NCBI GenBank assembly: GCA_021792405.1
Contig: JAJYUU010000020.1
Location: 1 to 41,937 of the forward strand
Direction of reading: 5' to 3'
Length of the DNA: 41,937 nt
From: Actinomycetes bacterium
GTDB lineage: Bacteria > Actinomycetota > Actinomycetes > Streptosporangiales > Streptosporangiaceae
This document shows positions 578-10,057 of the stretch, in pieces. A program made the translations under genes and the position numbers. Each line of letters opens with the position of its first letter. Position 1 is the first letter of the stretch. The notes under the pieces were generated by a model that had not been told where the DNA came from, did no database searches, and saw nothing but the letters and a program-made list of their open reading frames with translations.

Positions 578-1333
578 TCACGCTGCCTGGCCCTGGGTGA
601 GGCCGATGCTGTCGGCGATCAGGCGCAGGTGCTCGTTGGGAAACCGATGCCCATCACCGCGCAACTGCCGGGCCAGCATCCGCTGGCTCAGCCGCTCCCC
701 CCGGGCAGCGGCATCCTGATAGATGACGCTGGCAGCATCCAGCAGTCCCGGCTCAGGGGCTGTGCGGGTGCCGTCACCAGGCATGTCCAGATCGTCGCCG
801 GGCCGGGGAACCGGGGCGGCGCCGGCTGCGGAACGGCTGAACGGGCCGGCGCTGACCGGGGCCGCAGCCAGCGCCAGCACCGGCGCCTGTGTGCCTGCCC
901 CGGCGGTGGCGTTTGCCTGCTGGCGGGTCATCTTCAGGACCAGCAGCCCGACCGACAAGCCCGCGAACGCCGCCAGCGGGCTGGTCGCCGCGGTCAGCCG
1001 GTCAGCGAGGATGACCGGATGGCCGGGCAGCGCCTGGATGTGGCCGATGTTGCCTGCGACGCTGACCGCCAGCCCCGTCAGCGCGGTCGCCCACGGCCAC
1101 ATCCTTTGCCGGGCGGGCCACCCGTCCAGGTAGGCGACGTACAGGGCGAGTTCCCCGACCGCCAGGAACACGTCGATCTCGGCCGGCCAGGACATGGCCT
1201 GCCAGCCGCCCAGCCGGTGGTGCAACGCCCAGTCATACAAGCCCGCGTAACTGTGCGCGAGCGCGTTGACGCTCGCCGCGATAGCGATCACCCCGATCGA
1301 CAGCAGCGCAGCGCGGCGCGTCCTGGGGTTCAC
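578..1333 (-). CDS. DUF2637-like multi-TM protein (mobile element-associated)
   Basis: N-terminal TM segments ([18 protein letters not shown]-type region, [23 protein letters not shown], hydrophobic repeats) and a C-terminal cytoplasmic tail; start overlaps the integrase stop. Confidence 0.65.
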
Positions 1334-2697
1334 GCTGACCTCCTCGGCCGCCGGGCGGCAGGTTTGGCGCTCCGGCTGCGGATCCGGGTGAATGCCTCGA
1401 CGGCGGTCTCGTCGGCGTCGGGCAGGGTGTGCAGGTACCGCTGAGTAGTCATGATCGACCCGTGACCAAGGCGTTCCTTGACGACCTGCAGGTCTGCCCC
1501 GCCCGCGAGCAGCCAGGACGCGTGCGAATGGCGAAGATCATGAAACCGGGGCAACTCCGTCAAGCCCGCGGCTTCGCAGGCTGGGTGCCAGATCATGCGC
1601 CGGAACCAGTTGCGGCCGATGTGCTCGTCGCCATCTGCCCAATGCGGCGGGCGCGGTGTTGCGCCACCGGCTGCCCGGCGCTGAGCCCGGTAGTCGGCGA
1701 AGGCGCGCCGGCAGTGCGGGCACCGGCACGCCCCTGCGTTGTATGCGCTGAGAGTCCCGTGCCGGTACCGGCGGCCAGCGTCGTTGGGCTCAGTGAACCC
1801 GACGACCCCAGGCTCGGGGACCACGCACAAGGACGCGGGTACTGCGGCGCGCCGGGAGAACAGCAGGCCGTCCGGGCCCAGGCCGCGGGCCGTGATGTAG
1901 GACTTGAGCTTCGCGGCTATCTGCGGGCTGAGCTTGAGCCGCCGATACTCCTTGTCTTTGGGGTAGAGCTTGACCAGGAACCGTCGGCCGTCGGGGTGAA
2001 ACTCCCTGTTGACCTCGATCACCTTGCGGCTCACCGTCAGCATCCGGGTGGCAAGGTCAAGGTCGCGGACCCGCAGTTCTGCCAGCTCGCCCCACCGCAG
2101 CCCGCTTTCGATCGCGGTCTCGACCAGCAGCTGTGTGCCGGCATCGGGCAGCGCCGCGTAGAGGACTTCGAACTGTTCCGGGGTGATGATGGTCCGCACC
2201 GTGGCGGGCACGGTGGGGATCTTCACGCCGCGGCACGGATGAATATGGGTGACCTGATCATTCAGCGCGGTCGTGAAGATTGAGCTGAGGATCGAGGTCT
2301 TGCAGTACTGGATTGTCCATGCCGACTGGCCCTCTCGCTGCATCCTGGCGATCCATTCGCGGATGTGCTCGGGAAATATGTCAGTCATGCGCATCGGGCC
2401 AAACACCGGGAAGATATAGGCACCCAGATAGTAGGTGTATTTCTCCCGTGTCGTGGGCTCCAGGACGTGGTTGGGCAGCCAGCGCTCCTCGACGTACTTG
2501 CGGAACGTCTGGCGTCCGCGTGCCGGGTCGCCGACCCGGCCCTGCCGCAGCTCTGCCTCGGCGTTCTGCCAGGCCTTGTCCGCGGCCCGCTCGCTGCCGA
2601 AGGTTCCCGCGGAGCGTTCCGAACCGCGCAGGTCCGCGTAGACGGCGGTGTACCTCGGCTTGCCGTTCCGGCCGATCCGCTTCTTGGCGTACCCCAT
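1330..2697 (-). CDS. Tyrosine-type site-specific recombinase/integrase
   Basis: Catalytic motifs: [13 protein letters not shown] (Arg I), [13 protein letters not shown] (HxxR), [14 protein letters not shown] (His and Tyr nucleophile); N-terminal SAM-like core-binding region. Confidence 0.93.
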
Positions 2698-2854: not shown

Positions 2855-2902
2855 CCGCCCTCTCAAGGCGGTAGCGCCGGTTCAAATCCGGTCGGGGCTA
2901 CA
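2855..2902 (+). other. tRNA-Glu(CTC) 3' fragment: attachment-site remnant
   Basis: CCGCC-CTCTCAA-GGCGG anticodon arm, TAGC variable loop, GCCGG-TTCAAAT-CCGGT T-arm, CGGGGCT acceptor 3' strand + A. No matching AGCCCCG 5' acceptor strand or D-arm upstream. Confidence 0.8.
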
Positions 2903-3247
2903 GAGGTAGCAGCAGGTCAAGGGCCTGGTCGCCGGTCGCGGCGATCAGGCCTTGATCATTTGTCATTGGTTTGTCATCGAGTTCGGCCGTCCCCTGGCGG
3001 TCGCAGATGGCATCGGATGTCAGCAAGCGGACGTCTGCAGTGTGACCCGGCGCTGCGGCGAGCTTTCCGTCGTCGGTGAGCAGCGGGAGGCCGAGGGACT
3101 CGGCGAGCGCGATGTACATCGCGTGGTAGGCGCAGAGGCTGTAGCGCATCTCGAATGCCCGTGCCTGCAGCGCTGGCGGAGCAGTTCGTTACCTGGCTGG
3201 TTGGCGAGCAGCCGGATGACGATCGAGCAGTCCACGACGCATGTCAC
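2898..3247 (-). pseudogene. VapC-like PIN-domain toxin remnant
   Basis: N-terminal VTCVVDCSIVIRLLANQPGNELLRQR and C-terminal RYSLCAYHAMYIALAESLGLPLLTDDGKLAAAPGH are in different frames, and the usual ~60-residue middle is missing. Confidence 0.65.
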
Positions 3248-3410
3248 CGTCGGCCGTCCGCCATGAAGGAGCGCAGGGAGGCGCTGGGATCTGGATCGCG
3301 CTGAGCAGTAGCTGCCTGACACCCTCGTCCGCATCCTCCTGGCCGACCAGGTCGGCTAGGAGTCGGACGAGCCAGCGCTCACCAGACGCACAGCGGCAAT
3401 ACCCAGGTAC

Positions 3411-3423
3411 GACTATGGTAGTC
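3411..3423 (+). promoter_or_regulatory. Candidate vapBC promoter/autoregulatory operator
   Basis: GACTA-TGG-TAGTC inverted repeat ending 8 bp before the antitoxin ATG; possible -10 (TAGTCT) so close that a leaderless transcript is plausible. Confidence 0.35.
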
Positions 3424-3430
3424 TGTCGGT

Positions 3431-3658
3431 ATGACTACGAAGCTGGCTGTGAGCCTGCCCGATGAACTGGCTGAACAGGCACGGCAGGCAGTGCGCGACG
3501 GCCGGGCTGCCTCGGTCTCTGCTTACATCGCCGATGCTATGGCGCAGTCGTCCCGGACGAGGTCGATCACACGCCTGGTAGCTGACATGCGTGCCGAGGA
3601 CGGGCAACCCGGCGAGGAAGACTACGCGTGGGCTCGCCGGGCGCTGGGAGTCGAGTGA
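3431..3658 (+). CDS. VapB-like antitoxin
   Basis: MTTKLAVSLPDELAEQARQAVRDGRAASVSAYIADAM, ribbon-helix-helix-like antitoxin; immediately upstream of and overlapping a PIN toxin. Confidence 0.75.
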   Translation: MTTKLAVSLPDELAEQARQAVRDGRAASVSAYIADAMAQSSRTRSITRLVADMRAEDGQPGEEDYAWARRALGVE

Positions 3659-4035
3659 CCAGCGCGATCACGTTCGATGCCGGTGCGCTGATCGCGATCG
3701 AGCGCCGCAATCGGAGGATGCAGGCCTTGCTAGAGGAGCTCGACCGGCGGGACTGGCAAGTCGCGGTGCCCGCAGGCGCGGTCGCGCAGGCCTGGCGCGG
3801 CGGACCGCGCCAGGCGCGGATCGCAGCGCTGCTCAGCGATGAGCGCACGGAGGTTGTCGCCCTGGACGACACGGTTGCTCGCGCTGTCGGGTTGCTGTGC
3901 GGCAGGTCTGGCCACGCCGATGTGGTAGATGTGTCGGTTGCCCTCTGCGCGCGGCAGCGGAATCTGCATGTCGTTACCTCCGACCCGGAGGATCTGCGGG
4001 CCGTCGACGACGCGCTCATCCTCCACGTACCTTGA
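3655..4035 (+). CDS. PIN-domain toxin, VapC family
   Basis: GTG start overlaps the antitoxin TGA (GTGA); ITFDAGALIAIERRNRRM..., HADVVDVSVALCARQRNLHVVTSDPEDL acidic PIN motifs. Confidence 0.82.
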   Translation: MTSAITFDAGALIAIERRNRRMQALLEELDRRDWQVAVPAGAVAQAWRGGPRQARIAALLSDERTEVVALDDTVARAVGLLCGRSGHADVVDVSVALCARQRNLHVVTSDPEDLRAVDDALILHVP

Positions 4036-4044
4036 CGGCGCCGC

Positions 4045-4260
4045 AGCGGGCCGGCCACTAGCGAGAGGCGCTGGGTCAGGTCGTGCAGGGCCAGCCGGTC
4101 AGGATCGAGACCGTCAACCTCTACGGTTGAGCAGCTCCTCGAGCTGGTCGCGCGTGTTGGCGAGCCTGCGGTCGCGTCGTGGTTGCGGGCGGAGGCGGCG
4201 AGCGCGGCGCGGGCTTCGGGGTAGGCCAGCCGGCTGGCCAGAGCGGTGTCGCAGCCGTAC
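4045..4260 (-). pseudogene. Second VapC/PIN-like remnant
   Basis: Fragments such as DTALASRLAYPEARAALAA and VEVDGLDPDRLALHDLTQRL in minus-strand frames, without a complete ORF. Confidence 0.4.
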
Positions 4261-4458
4261 ACTAAGACGGTCCTGCGTATGTACGCTTCATGTGCCACTG
4301 GCAAGCGCCATGAAGAGCCGAGGCCGGGTGGCGCGCGTCTCGGCCAGACGCGCTCTAGCAGCTCCTGGTGTGCTGGTACGGCGGAGCATGCGGCGGTCGT
4401 TGATGGCTACCGGAGTTCGCCGCGTGCTCCAAGCTGTCTCCACGGCAGGCGCGGGCTG

Positions 4459-5519
4459 TCAGTCGCGGAGGAGGTTGGCGACTCGTTCGGCTGCGGTGAG
4501 CTCCGGGGCCTCGAACGGTCGCTGAGTCAGTTCCTCTGCGAGCAGGATGTAGCGGGTTGCGGTCGCGATACGGAGTTCGTCGGTCATGACGGGGGCCTCT
4601 CCGTCGCCGCGGAATCCTCGCTCTGCCATCCACTCTCGCAGCGGCTCCTTGTCGAGTGCTCGCTGATCCTTGTTCTGCCGGAAGAGCTCGTGCGAAGCCC
4701 GTCGGGCATCGGGTTGCCGGCAATGTTCCGCGCGCCCGCCTGGTAGTTGAACCACAACGATGTCTTCGTTACGCCCGTGATGTAGGCGCGGACGACGAAT
4801 TCAAGCGGCACCGGAGCGCACTCGCGGACGCGCACGACGTTGGGGTCAGGGACCTCCAGGAGGTGGTTCGGGACGATGTCGGAGGTGGCGTCGAACCAGT
4901 AGTTCGCTATCAGGTTGAGGACCTGTCCCTTGAACGGGATAGTCCCGAGGAGCCGGTCGACCGCCGACAACCTGTCGGTGGTCACGATGGTGCGAACGTC
5001 GCCGTCGACGTAGCTGTCACGCACTTTGCCCTCGTGGCGGGCACCAAGGTGACCGAAGTCCGTTCGCTCCAGCGTGCCCAGCAGTTCCCTCGCAATCCTG
5101 TCGCCGGAGAGCATTGGCGTCCCTTCTCCGGTCCGCAGCGGTGACCCCATGACGTCCTCCCTCTCGATCAGCCGGTCTATTGCGTTGACCCGGCCAGCCG
5201 CCCGCCGGGCGGCCTCCGTCAGGCGCCGACGGTGCTCGACCAGCCGCGCCCGTCGCGTGCCTCGATCAGTGGCGTCGACGATGGCGGCGACATCCTCCAG
5301 CGGCATGCCGACGTCCCGCAACGCGGCAAGGGCGCGCGCTCGCGGCAGCTGGCGCAGCCCGTAGCGGCGGTAGCCGGTGCGATCATCGACCTCGGCCGGC
5401 ACGAGCAGGCCGACCTGGTGGTAGTGCCGCAACGTCTCAGCCGTCAGCCCCGACAGCTGCGCGAACGCGCCGACACCAACCAACTCGCCTGAGGCTGAGT
5501 CCACACCAGCAGGATCCAA
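4459..5519 (-). pseudogene. MerR-type HTH fused in frame to a SAICAR synthetase (PurC)-like domain; frame-disrupted with internal loss
   Basis: 4584-5519: [47 protein letters not shown] (MerR), then [93 protein letters not shown] (PurC N-half). C-terminal PurC-like [48 protein letters not shown] lies in another frame (4459-4755). Confidence 0.72.
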
Positions 5520-5831
5520 CCCTCGGCCGCCCGAGAGTCAAGGCGCGACCGTTAGCTAGTGCGCAAATCTCGTCTGCATCCCGGCCGCCGCCTGGCGGAC
5601 TCCCATCCGGGTCGCGCCCGTAGGAGCGAGACCTGATCCGGCCTGTCCTGATTCCGGGTCACATGGGTGCCTTTCCCGCTACCTTGGTTGGCCAGGGAGC
5701 ACCACGGTGGATGCCGGGCACCCGGAGTTCGCTCGGCACCGCCTCGCGGGGCCGGATAGTCTTCGGTACGGTATCAGCGGCTGGCCCGGCGAACGCGATA
5801 AGGCTTTCCACAACTGCTGGCAAAGAGCTTC

Positions 5832-7608: not shown

Positions 7609-7774
7609 CCGCCCGGGCCCCGGAGTTCGGAGCAAATGCGCGGCCCGCGTGGGAATCGCTGTAATATGCGGTTTTTGCGGCCGTCGTCAGTCGGCAGACT
7701 GGTGCGCGCGCAGCGCGCAGGCGACCGCCGCGTCAGTGCCTCCGGGCCTTGGAACGTCGCTAGACAGGAGAGTC

Positions 7775-10057
7775 ATGAACCGAGTGCTCACCGCACTAGG
7801 AGTGGTTCTCGCGCTAGGCCTCGTCGTCCCGTTAACGCTTGCCGGTGCGTCCGACGCTGCCGTCGGGAGCACATCGGCCACCGGCCAGGCGACAACTGTC
7901 GCCGTCGGCCGGGCAGGCACGGTCCGGACCGGCTCGGTGGTCCGGTTTAACGTCGGGGCAACGCACTCGCCGCAACTCGAGCGAATGCTCGCCGGCCACC
8001 CCGGCCTGGCGCCGAAGGCGGCTGCGCTGCGACCCTCGAGCCTCCCGGCAGGGGCGTCGGCAGTGCAGGGCATCGATGTCGCGTCCTACCAGCACCCTGG
8101 CGGAGCTGCCATCGACTGGCGTCAGGTAGCGGCCGCGGGTTACAAGTTCGCGTTCATCAAGGCCACCGAAGGCTCGTATTACGTCAACCCGTATTACGCC
8201 TCCGATGCCGGCGATGCGCAGGCTTCCGGGATGTTCGTGGCCCCGTACGCATTCGCGATCCCGAACTACTCGGGCGGCGCCCTGCAGGCCGACTACGCTC
8301 TGGACAACGCGGACTACGCGCCGGATGGCCGGCTGCTTCCGCCCGTACTCGACATCGAGTACGACCCGTACGTGTCGCAGGACAAAACGAACATCTGCTA
8401 CGGCCTCACCCCGGCCCAGATGGTCGGGTGGATCAGCGCGTTCACCGCCGAGATCCAGCGCCGCACCGGGCAGGATCCGGTGATCTACACGACGGCCGGC
8501 TGGTGGAGTCAGTGCACCGGCGATAGCGCTGCGTTTGCCGCCGACCCGCTGTGGATAGCGGACTACGGCGTCTCGGCGCCCGCCGTTCCGGGCGCCTGGA
8601 GCAACAACTGGGCTTACTGGCAGTACACGTCTTCGGCGAACGTCCCCGGCATCGATTGCAAGGTCCTGGTAAATAACAAGACCGAGTACGCCTGCGACGC
8701 CAGTTACCTGAGCAGCACCGCACTGGAACTTGCCGCGCCGGCTAGCCAGAGCAACGCGGTCGGCAGCACTGCCAGTCTTCAGGCCGGCGTGCTCTACGCC
8801 GGCCTGGCGCCGGGATACACCGGCTCGTCTGTGACCTACAGCGCGACCCGCTTGCCAACAGGCGCCCAGATTGGCACGAGCACCGGCACAGTGAGCGGGA
8901 CGCTTGCGGATATAGCCGCGTTCCCGGCGGTAATAACGGCGTCGGTCACCGGCGACCCGGACGCTACGCAGCAATTCAGCTGGTACGTGCACGGCGGCGT
9001 CAGCCTTGGCAGGCTGACGCGTCAGCGGGGATCGGTGGGGGCGCCGGCCGATTATCAGGTCCCTGCTACTGACGGACTGGGCGGCTGCACGCTGCAGTTC
9101 TCCTCGTCCGCGCTGCCGCCGGGCCTGTCGCTCAGCAGTTGCGGCACGATATCCGGCTGGCTGACGACCATGGGATACTACCGGGTCCGGGTGCGGGTTA
9201 CCGATAGCTCCGGCGCGCTGCTGGCGCGCGGCGTGCTCATCTGGCGAGTGGGCGCCGCGACCGGGAGCGGGCCGGCCGGCCAGCTCCGGCTCCGCCGGGA
9301 TGGCAAGTGCCTTACCGAGCGGAATCGCACCGATATCGCGATCGAGCCCTGCAGCCGGTCCGCTGCCGAGCAATGGACGGTCGCCGCCGATGGCTCGCTG
9401 CGGGCAGGCGGCAGCTGCCTGGCGGCCAAGTATGCCCGCGGCAGCGCTCCCGGCGCCCTGGTGATGAGATCCTGCGGCACCGATCCGCAGCGCTGGCAGC
9501 TCGGCTCGAACGCGGTGCTGACGAACGTAGCCAGCGGCCGTTGCCTGGCCGACACCGGCAGCCGGAACGGCTGGCGCGCGGTTGCCGCGGTCTGCCAGGC
9601 CACCCCCGAGCCTGTCGGCAGTGAGAGCCGCCCTAGCTGGAGCCAGCAGTGGACGCTGCCGGCCGGACCGCTGACCTCGGGAGTCGCCGGGTACTGCGCC
9701 AGCAGCGCGGGCGCCGCCAGAGATCCGGCTGGCGTGGTCACGCTGCGCGGCTGCTACTCCACGGCGCAGCAGTCGTGGACGGTCAGGCCGGACGGTGCGC
9801 TCAGCACCGGAGGCCAGTGCCTCAGCACGGCTGGCGGGAGCCTGGCTCCCGGCACGGAGCTCCGGCTGGTTCCCTGCCTGCCGGGTGCCCCCAGCCAGGT
9901 CTGGCAGCTGTCCGGCGGCCCGATCGGAGTTCAACTGCTTAGTCCGGCCGCCGGGCTGTGCGCGGCAGATCCCGGCGACCGGGCGAAGACCGGCACGCTG
10001 CTGAGGCTCGGTCCGTGCCTGGCTGGCGACCCTGGCGGCAGCTGGCGGGTTAGTTAA
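7775..10057 (+). CDS. Secreted GH25 lysozyme with Ig-like region and C-terminal ricin-B-type lectin repeats
   Basis: Signal peptide MNRVLTALGVVLALGLVVPLTLAGA; GH25: GIDVASYQHPGGAAIDWRQVAAAGYKFAFIKATEGSYYVNPYY...PVLDIEYDP; later QxW-like units (EQWTVAADGSL, QRWQLG, QQWTL, QSWTV, QVWQLS). ATG at 7775 follows AGGAGAG. Confidence 0.88.
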   Translation: MNRVLTALGVVLALGLVVPLTLAGASDAAVGSTSATGQATTVAVGRAGTVRTGSVVRFNVGATHSPQLERMLAGHPGLAPKAAALRPSSLPAGASAVQGIDVASYQHPGGAAIDWRQVAAAGYKFAFIKATEGSYYVNPYYASDAGDAQASGMFVAPYAFAIPNYSGGALQADYALDNADYAPDGRLLPPVLDIEYDPYVSQDKTNICYGLTPAQMVGWISAFTAEIQRRTGQDPVIYTTAGWWSQCTGDSAAFAADPLWIADYGVSAPAVPGAWSNNWAYWQYTSSANVPGIDCKVLVNNKTEYACDASYLSSTALELAAPASQSNAVGSTASLQAGVLYAGLAPGYTGSSVTYSATRLPTGAQIGTSTGTVSGTLADIAAFPAVITASVTGDPDATQQFSWYVHGGVSLGRLTRQRGSVGAPADYQVPATDGLGGCTLQFSSSALPPGLSLSSCGTISGWLTTMGYYRVRVRVTDSSGALLARGVLIWRVGAATGSGPAGQLRLRRDGKCLTERNRTDIAIEPCSRSAAEQWTVAADGSLRAGGSCLAAKYARGSAPGALVMRSCGTDPQRWQLGSNAVLTNVASGRCLADTGSRNGWRAVAAVCQATPEPVGSESRPSWSQQWTLPAGPLTSGVAGYCASSAGAARDPAGVVTLRGCYSTAQQSWTVRPDGALSTGGQCLSTAGGSLAPGTELRLVPCLPGAPSQVWQLSGGPIGVQLLSPAAGLCAADPGDRAKTGTLLRLGPCLAGDPGGSWRVS

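Follow-up and report, generated by a model that had tools for sequence, protein, structure and literature searches.

Organization of the Locus

The window analyzed here is a stretch of 41,937 nucleotides from a bacterium of the family Streptosporangiaceae (contig JAJYUU010000020.1). Its minus strand carries an open frame in which a MerR-type DNA-binding domain precedes the N-terminal half of a PurC (SAICAR synthetase) domain (Table 1). A first-pass annotation, made from the sequence alone, had described a single frame leading from MerR into PurC, and family searches bear this out: MerR_1 (PF13411) matches residues 16–83 of the frame and SAICAR_synt (PF01259) matches residues 162–255 (E = 4e-21). 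The start of the frame, listed as the TTG at 5519, has to be corrected, since this codon falls within the promoter and a GTG downstream is the likely start. A long helix, through which the MerR dimer is expected to make its coiled coil, spans residues 79–112 in an AlphaFold model of a homologue (L041), with low confidence over much of its length.

The copy in the window is broken by a deletion. The reference for this is a near-identical intact copy from a member of the same genus (G557, a contig also designated G024; locus L108); over about 1,060 bases, the window copy has two substitutions relative to it. Exactly 295 bp of this reference (98 codons and one base) are absent from the window and, with them, the middle of the SAICAR_synt domain. 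This loss accounts for the 80–100 missing residues and for the change of frame which had been noticed when the copy was first called broken. The out-of-frame C-terminal end of PurC spans 4459–4755, and the DNA of the remnant is identical to the C-terminus of G557. Only about two bases are common to the two sides of the junction. The gap may be a true deletion or an assembly error, the assembly being a draft in 314 contigs.

Table 1. Features of the MerR–PurC locus (positions in the window).
Feature	Position	Strand	Basis
MerR–PurC open frame	4584–5519	−	MerR_1, then N-terminal half of SAICAR_synt
−35 element (TTGACT), promoter of the fusion	5536–5541	−	invariant in 9/9 copies with 5′ end
Predicted operator, imperfect inverted repeat ACTCTCGG-GCGG-CCGAGGGT	5519–5538	−	conserved block and genome site search
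−10 element GATCCT (nAnnnT in all copies)	5511–5516	−	19 bp from −35
Likely start codon GTG	5502–5504	−	6 nt past −10; position from 5′ alignment
MerR winged helix-turn-helix DNA-binding domain	5271–5474	−	PF13411, E = 5e-13
Long helix, expected MerR dimer coiled coil	5163–5264	−	AlphaFold model of L041 homologue
Candidate internal ribosome-binding site (AGGGAGGA) and start ATG 5150	5148–5162	−	conservation, anti-SD pairing
Second possible internal start, ATG 5114	5112–5114	−	near N-terminus position of stand-alone PurC relatives
PurC (SAICAR synthetase) domain, N-terminal half, PRK12607 type	4693–5075	−	PF01259, NF009251
295-bp deletion junction, breaks the window copy	4692/4693	−	alignment with intact G557/L108
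PurC domain C-terminal remnant, out of frame	4459–4692	−	NF009251 positions 233–308
Recently exchanged segment, fusion and PIN-type toxin gene	2855–5580		about 99.5% identical to G557

Intact and Broken Copies

Some soil actinobacteria carry MerR–PurC fusions; ten copies were found, three of which are intact. The intact fusions have 451 codons in G557, 444 in the named strain Microlunatus endophyticus CGMCC 4.7306 (G560) and about 445 in G654. The seven broken ones include that of the window; two have small frameshifts (G558 and G662), one is interrupted by a stop codon (G559), one has a deletion and a change of frame (G561), one keeps only the C-terminal part (G663), and the copy of Trebonia kvetii is reduced to the promoter and about 50 residues. 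The G663 fragment adjoins an IS21-type transposase gene (L105, 9411–11279). Some of the small lesions could be sequencing errors. With seven copies out of ten broken, many hosts can do without the gene.

The architecture is rare: samples of 395 genomes of the class and 347 of the order of Microlunatus yielded no fusion beyond these ten copies. A full-text search of open-licence papers returned no report of a MerR–PurC fusion, nor, within the same scope, of a MerR–SAICAR synthetase with catalytic residues and its own promoter as sole target.

The homologue search by which the proposed architecture could have failed instead recovered both domains joined in frame, intact in three genomes. In an intact homologue, MerR (PF13411, E = 4e-13) and SAICAR_synt (PF01259, E = 2.5e-63 in L041) are the only families detected. 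The dN/dS ratios among intact copies are 0.09–0.22 for the MerR half and 0.14–0.15 for the PurC half. Both halves are thus under similar purifying selection (about 0.1–0.2), which indicates that they are kept up together.

Promoter and Operator

Nine copies retain their 5′ end. Their alignment shows the same arrangement in 9/9 cases: TTGACT, a 19-bp spacer, nAnnnT, and then a GTG or TTG about 6 nt further on. The inverted repeat overlaps the −35 element and occupies most of the spacer. The DNA on the 5′ side of this block is otherwise unrelated, except among close relatives. Spacers of 19–20 bp with a palindrome are typical of promoters controlled by MerR proteins (PMC9909328), and by its sequence the conserved block is a promoter of the MerR type. 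The start codon lies so near the −10 element that there is no room for a leader, and the mRNA of the fusion is probably leaderless.

The operator was searched for in fourteen genomes, with up to three mismatches allowed and with the reversed pattern as a control. Each of the nine genomes that carry the 5′ end of the fusion has a single site with no more than one mismatch, always at the fusion promoter. Neither G663 nor any of the four genomes which have only a stand-alone relative contains such a match. Matches with two or three mismatches number 15 over the fourteen genomes, and the reversed pattern gives 14 hits overall. In the window, there is no second match at up to three mismatches. The single strong site per genome, at the gene's own promoter, points to regulation of this gene alone, and from its sequence the fusion looks purely autoregulatory.

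The MerR–PurC frame is genuine and no accident of the window assembly. It is extremely unlikely that the fusion has no joint meaning and results from chance read-through of two genes or from an assembly artefact, as the broken state of the window copy and of several others might suggest: the linker frame is open in independent genomes, one of them a named isolate, selection acts on both halves, and a single promoter is conserved.

The PurC Domain

The fusion PurC differs in type from the housekeeping enzyme. The Microlunatus fusion copy scores 366 bits with the PRK12607 type versus 224 with the other type, and the preference is reversed for the housekeeping purC of Microlunatus (410 with PRK13961 versus 268). 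Two intact copies score 366.2 and 364.2 bits, just under the NF009251 (PRK12607) equivalog cut-off of 371, so an altered substrate specificity is possible. A tree of 25 sequences separates all housekeeping PurCs from those of the fusions, which group as a single clade (100/99); the branches are long, which makes the placement of the neighbors of this clade less sure. A separate housekeeping purC is present in every fusion genome except G559, which has 2.7 Mb. By these comparisons, the fusion PurC is a second, accessory enzyme of the PRK12607 type beside the housekeeping purC. Its nearest stand-alone relatives (G670, G069, G768 and G777) are about 45–48% identical, and no MerR domain was found in the stand-alone relatives examined.

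The housekeeping purC of Microlunatus endophyticus is found about 5 kb downstream of the fusion (L106, 2602–4481 and 9626–10960) and is followed by genes resembling purS and purQ by sequence alone.

The first-pass annotation had raised the question of whether an intact homologue keeps its ligand-binding residues. In the alignment it appears to: the counterparts of R94, S100, D175, K177, E179, D191 and R199 of E. coli PurC are all retained. The sequence of E. coli PurC served as the yardstick for the numbering and the roles of the catalytic residues. Mean pLDDT is 70 in the AlphaFold model of the L041 homologue, where the linker is predicted with low confidence. With Foldseek, this predicted structure matches SAICAR synthases (1obg, E = 1e-23) and, more weakly, the MerR regulators BmrR and MtaN. 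The closest solved sequence to the MerR half of the intact homologue is TipA (2vz4).

Internal Start and Probable Second Product

Two internal ATGs preceded by Shine–Dalgarno-like sequences had been pointed out in the window, and both are present, at 5150 and 5114. The first is the stronger. In codon column 123, which contains ATG 5150, the residue is M, V or L, yet the codon is NTG (ATG, GTG or TTG) in 6/6 compared copies. The pairing of the sequence before this column with the anti-SD tail of the 16S rRNA is the strongest of 437 columns (mean of −10.35 kcal/mol). Synonymous shuffles, applied to four columns of six related sequences, give P = 0.001 for the pairing and 0.0035 for the codon at the 5150 site, values which ignore shared descent. 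The NTG count of control column 178 is also extreme, through shared descent, and the statistics for 5150 are therefore supportive but not conclusive. The 5114 site ranks sixth for SD pairing, and one copy has CTG at this position.

The kept NTG and the strongest ribosome-binding-site pairing make a separate PurC product from 5150 likely, as with TipAL and TipAS. The idea of an independent PurC product is supported by sequence conservation for one of the two proposed starts, and less so for the other.

Another possibility is that the PurC fold is a pure sensor without catalysis, like the shikimate-kinase-like domain of BzdR, an enzyme fold turned effector domain in which the loss of activity was essential (PMC3602430). 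This is quite improbable here, because every catalytic residue checked is conserved and the internal start would yield PurC without a DNA-binding domain.

Mobility and Genomic Context

The identity between the window and G557 is about 99.5% over 2855–5580 and about 92% in the DNA to its right. Between these two genomes, dS is 0.11 in the housekeeping purC and 0 over the compared codons of the fusion. Similarly, G558 and G557 show a dS of about 1.0 in the housekeeping purC but only about 0.1–0.2 in the fusion. Values for the fusion that are far below those of the housekeeping gene in both pairs indicate transfer between lineages, and on these sequence data the fusion, with its PurC half, has moved horizontally. 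A congener (G182) has the right-hand flank, and the fusion is not beside it.

A tyrosine recombinase of the phage integrase family is encoded beside the exchanged segment (1330–2697, minus strand); no tRNA that would mark an integration site was found in the window. The exchanged segment also holds a probable VapBC-type toxin–antitoxin pair (3431–4035, plus strand), made up of a small gene and, after it, a PIN-domain gene that scores slightly below the Pfam cut-off. ParE-type and PemK/MazF-type toxin genes occur near other copies of the fusion (L103, 10392–10745; L107, 13538–13864). To the right, at 7649–10057 (plus strand), lies a gene whose predicted product belongs to glycosyl hydrolase family 25 and also has ricin-type lectin and putative Ig domains.

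Plasmid and phage records contain no match that covers 80% of the fusion; among the matches listed, 20/20 plasmid rows are on the PurC side or partial and 5/5 phage rows are PurC-only. A scan of viral contigs returned neither a relative of the fusion nor the operator.

Several neighboring families were considered as partners. RibD_C, which is encoded near three PurC loci, was dropped because the family is so abundant (up to 32 members per genome, and at least 12 in seven of the 13 genomes searched). The APH kinase and NUDIX genes that lie near some of the copies were set aside, as these families are very common. A HAD phosphatase is a real neighbor at two loci only, which does not make it a general partner; the two genes, 77% identical, adjoin PurC-like genes (L110, 10161–10796, minus strand; L111, 7099–7875, plus strand).

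The phosphatase is nevertheless relevant to another explanation, according to which the PurC-like domain works with it in a specialized nucleotide pathway of the kind that makes pyrazofurin or formycin. Clusters for C-nucleosides do carry second sets of Pur enzymes (PMC8724604), and a HAD_2 phosphatase gene lies directly downstream of the G559 fusion, while the one that is 77% identical overlaps the stand-alone PurC relative of G670. However, the HAD gene is beside no other fusion and is missing from most fusion genomes, and besides PurC and HAD the neighborhoods share only weak matches to common families (ABC ATPases and RibD_C), which makes this explanation improbable. Close relatives among the compared neighborhoods also have flanking genes in common.

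Comparison with Known Systems

Fusions of a DNA-binding domain with an enzyme fold (BzdR, PutA) and autoregulated MerR cassettes (TipA) are already known. In trigger enzymes, such as PutA from E. coli, catalysis and DNA binding reside in one polypeptide; its fold and its DNA-binding family both differ from those of the fusion. BzdR similarly joins a helix-turn-helix DNA-binding domain to a metabolic enzyme fold, in this case shikimate-kinase-like (PMC3602430), but it has no enzyme activity and governs genes for benzoate degradation, whereas the fusion keeps its catalytic residues, has a MerR head and targets its own promoter. PrfC, from pyrazofurin biosynthesis, resembles the fusion, by its description in the literature, as a second SAICAR synthetase beside the housekeeping one (PMC8724604). 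The same holds for stand-alone PurCs of the PRK12607 type, which differ in that those examined have no MerR domain.

TipA is a minimal autoregulated system in which full-length and short isoforms are made from two starts of one gene (PMC7762955), and by analogy it is the closest functional parallel to the internal start of the fusion. The TipA/SkgA class (Streptomyces lividans TipAL/TipAS) has in common with the fusion a MerR head; its C-terminal ligand-binding domain, the regulation of its own gene and its short product from an internal start have predicted counterparts in the fusion. The C-terminal domain of the fusion is, however, a SAICAR synthetase with catalytic residues, and not the antibiotic-binding domain of TipAS (PF07739).

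This likeness raises the possibility of a TipA-like resistance gene, in which a natural inhibitor of SAICAR synthetase would meet the PurC domain as a spare or insensitive target, or as a sponge: binding of the inhibitor would induce the gene and the short PurC product would confer resistance. The layout is that of TipA, with a MerR head, no strong site other than at its own promoter and probably two products (PMC7762955), the gene is mobile and accessory beside an intact housekeeping purC, and its patchy presence and frequent loss fit a conditional benefit. On the other hand, patchiness suits any conditional function, no inhibitor is known here and no biosynthetic cluster was recognized nearby. 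We consider such a role rather unlikely.

Proposed Working of the Intact Gene

The copy in the window is probably the decayed form of an accessory SAICAR synthetase that is mobile, encoded by a single gene and autoregulated, the occupancy of its active site controlling the gene's own promoter; we hold this with moderate confidence. The intact gene would give a transcript, leaderless as we infer, from which the MerR–PurC protein is made. The MerR dimer would sit on the inverted repeat of its own promoter, in the 19-bp spacer, and, to judge from the operator search, nowhere else in the genome. The PurC domain would replace the usual effector domain of MerR proteins while retaining its catalytic residues. 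Occupancy of its active site by CAIR, ATP, aspartate, SAICAR or an inhibitor would most likely twist the MerR dimer, which would then activate the promoter, if the direction of switching is as supposed. The strong internal ribosome-binding site would provide extra PurC without the DNA-binding domain, like TipAS beside TipAL, and the system would reset once the substrate has been consumed. A spare PurC which induces itself in this way would rise upon a block of the housekeeping enzyme or an accumulation of its substrate. Catalysis, the ligand, the direction of switching and the benefit to the cell are what we infer at this stage.

The first-pass annotation proposed either a regulator that uses PurC as its sensor or a bifunctional gene, and the apparently autoregulatory, conserved promoter and the intact catalytic residues fit that proposal. 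More tentatively, a single natural protein may act at once as a functional biosynthetic enzyme and as a transcription factor that serves only its own gene, which would make one mobile gene, with two translation products, a complete loop that senses, responds and catalyzes.

Significance

If this is true, one gene would combine enzyme, sensor, switch and promoter for a step of central purine synthesis, and the whole unit would move between genera. It would represent a natural bifunctional stage in the evolution of an enzyme into a transcription factor, a question which has been addressed by engineered chimeras (PMC3602430), and a living counterpart of the intermediate between enzyme and regulator that was rebuilt artificially for BzdR. 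It would also offer a compact, ligand-controlled expression cassette, and could lead to inhibitors of PurC that occur in nature, PurC being a target for antibacterial drugs.
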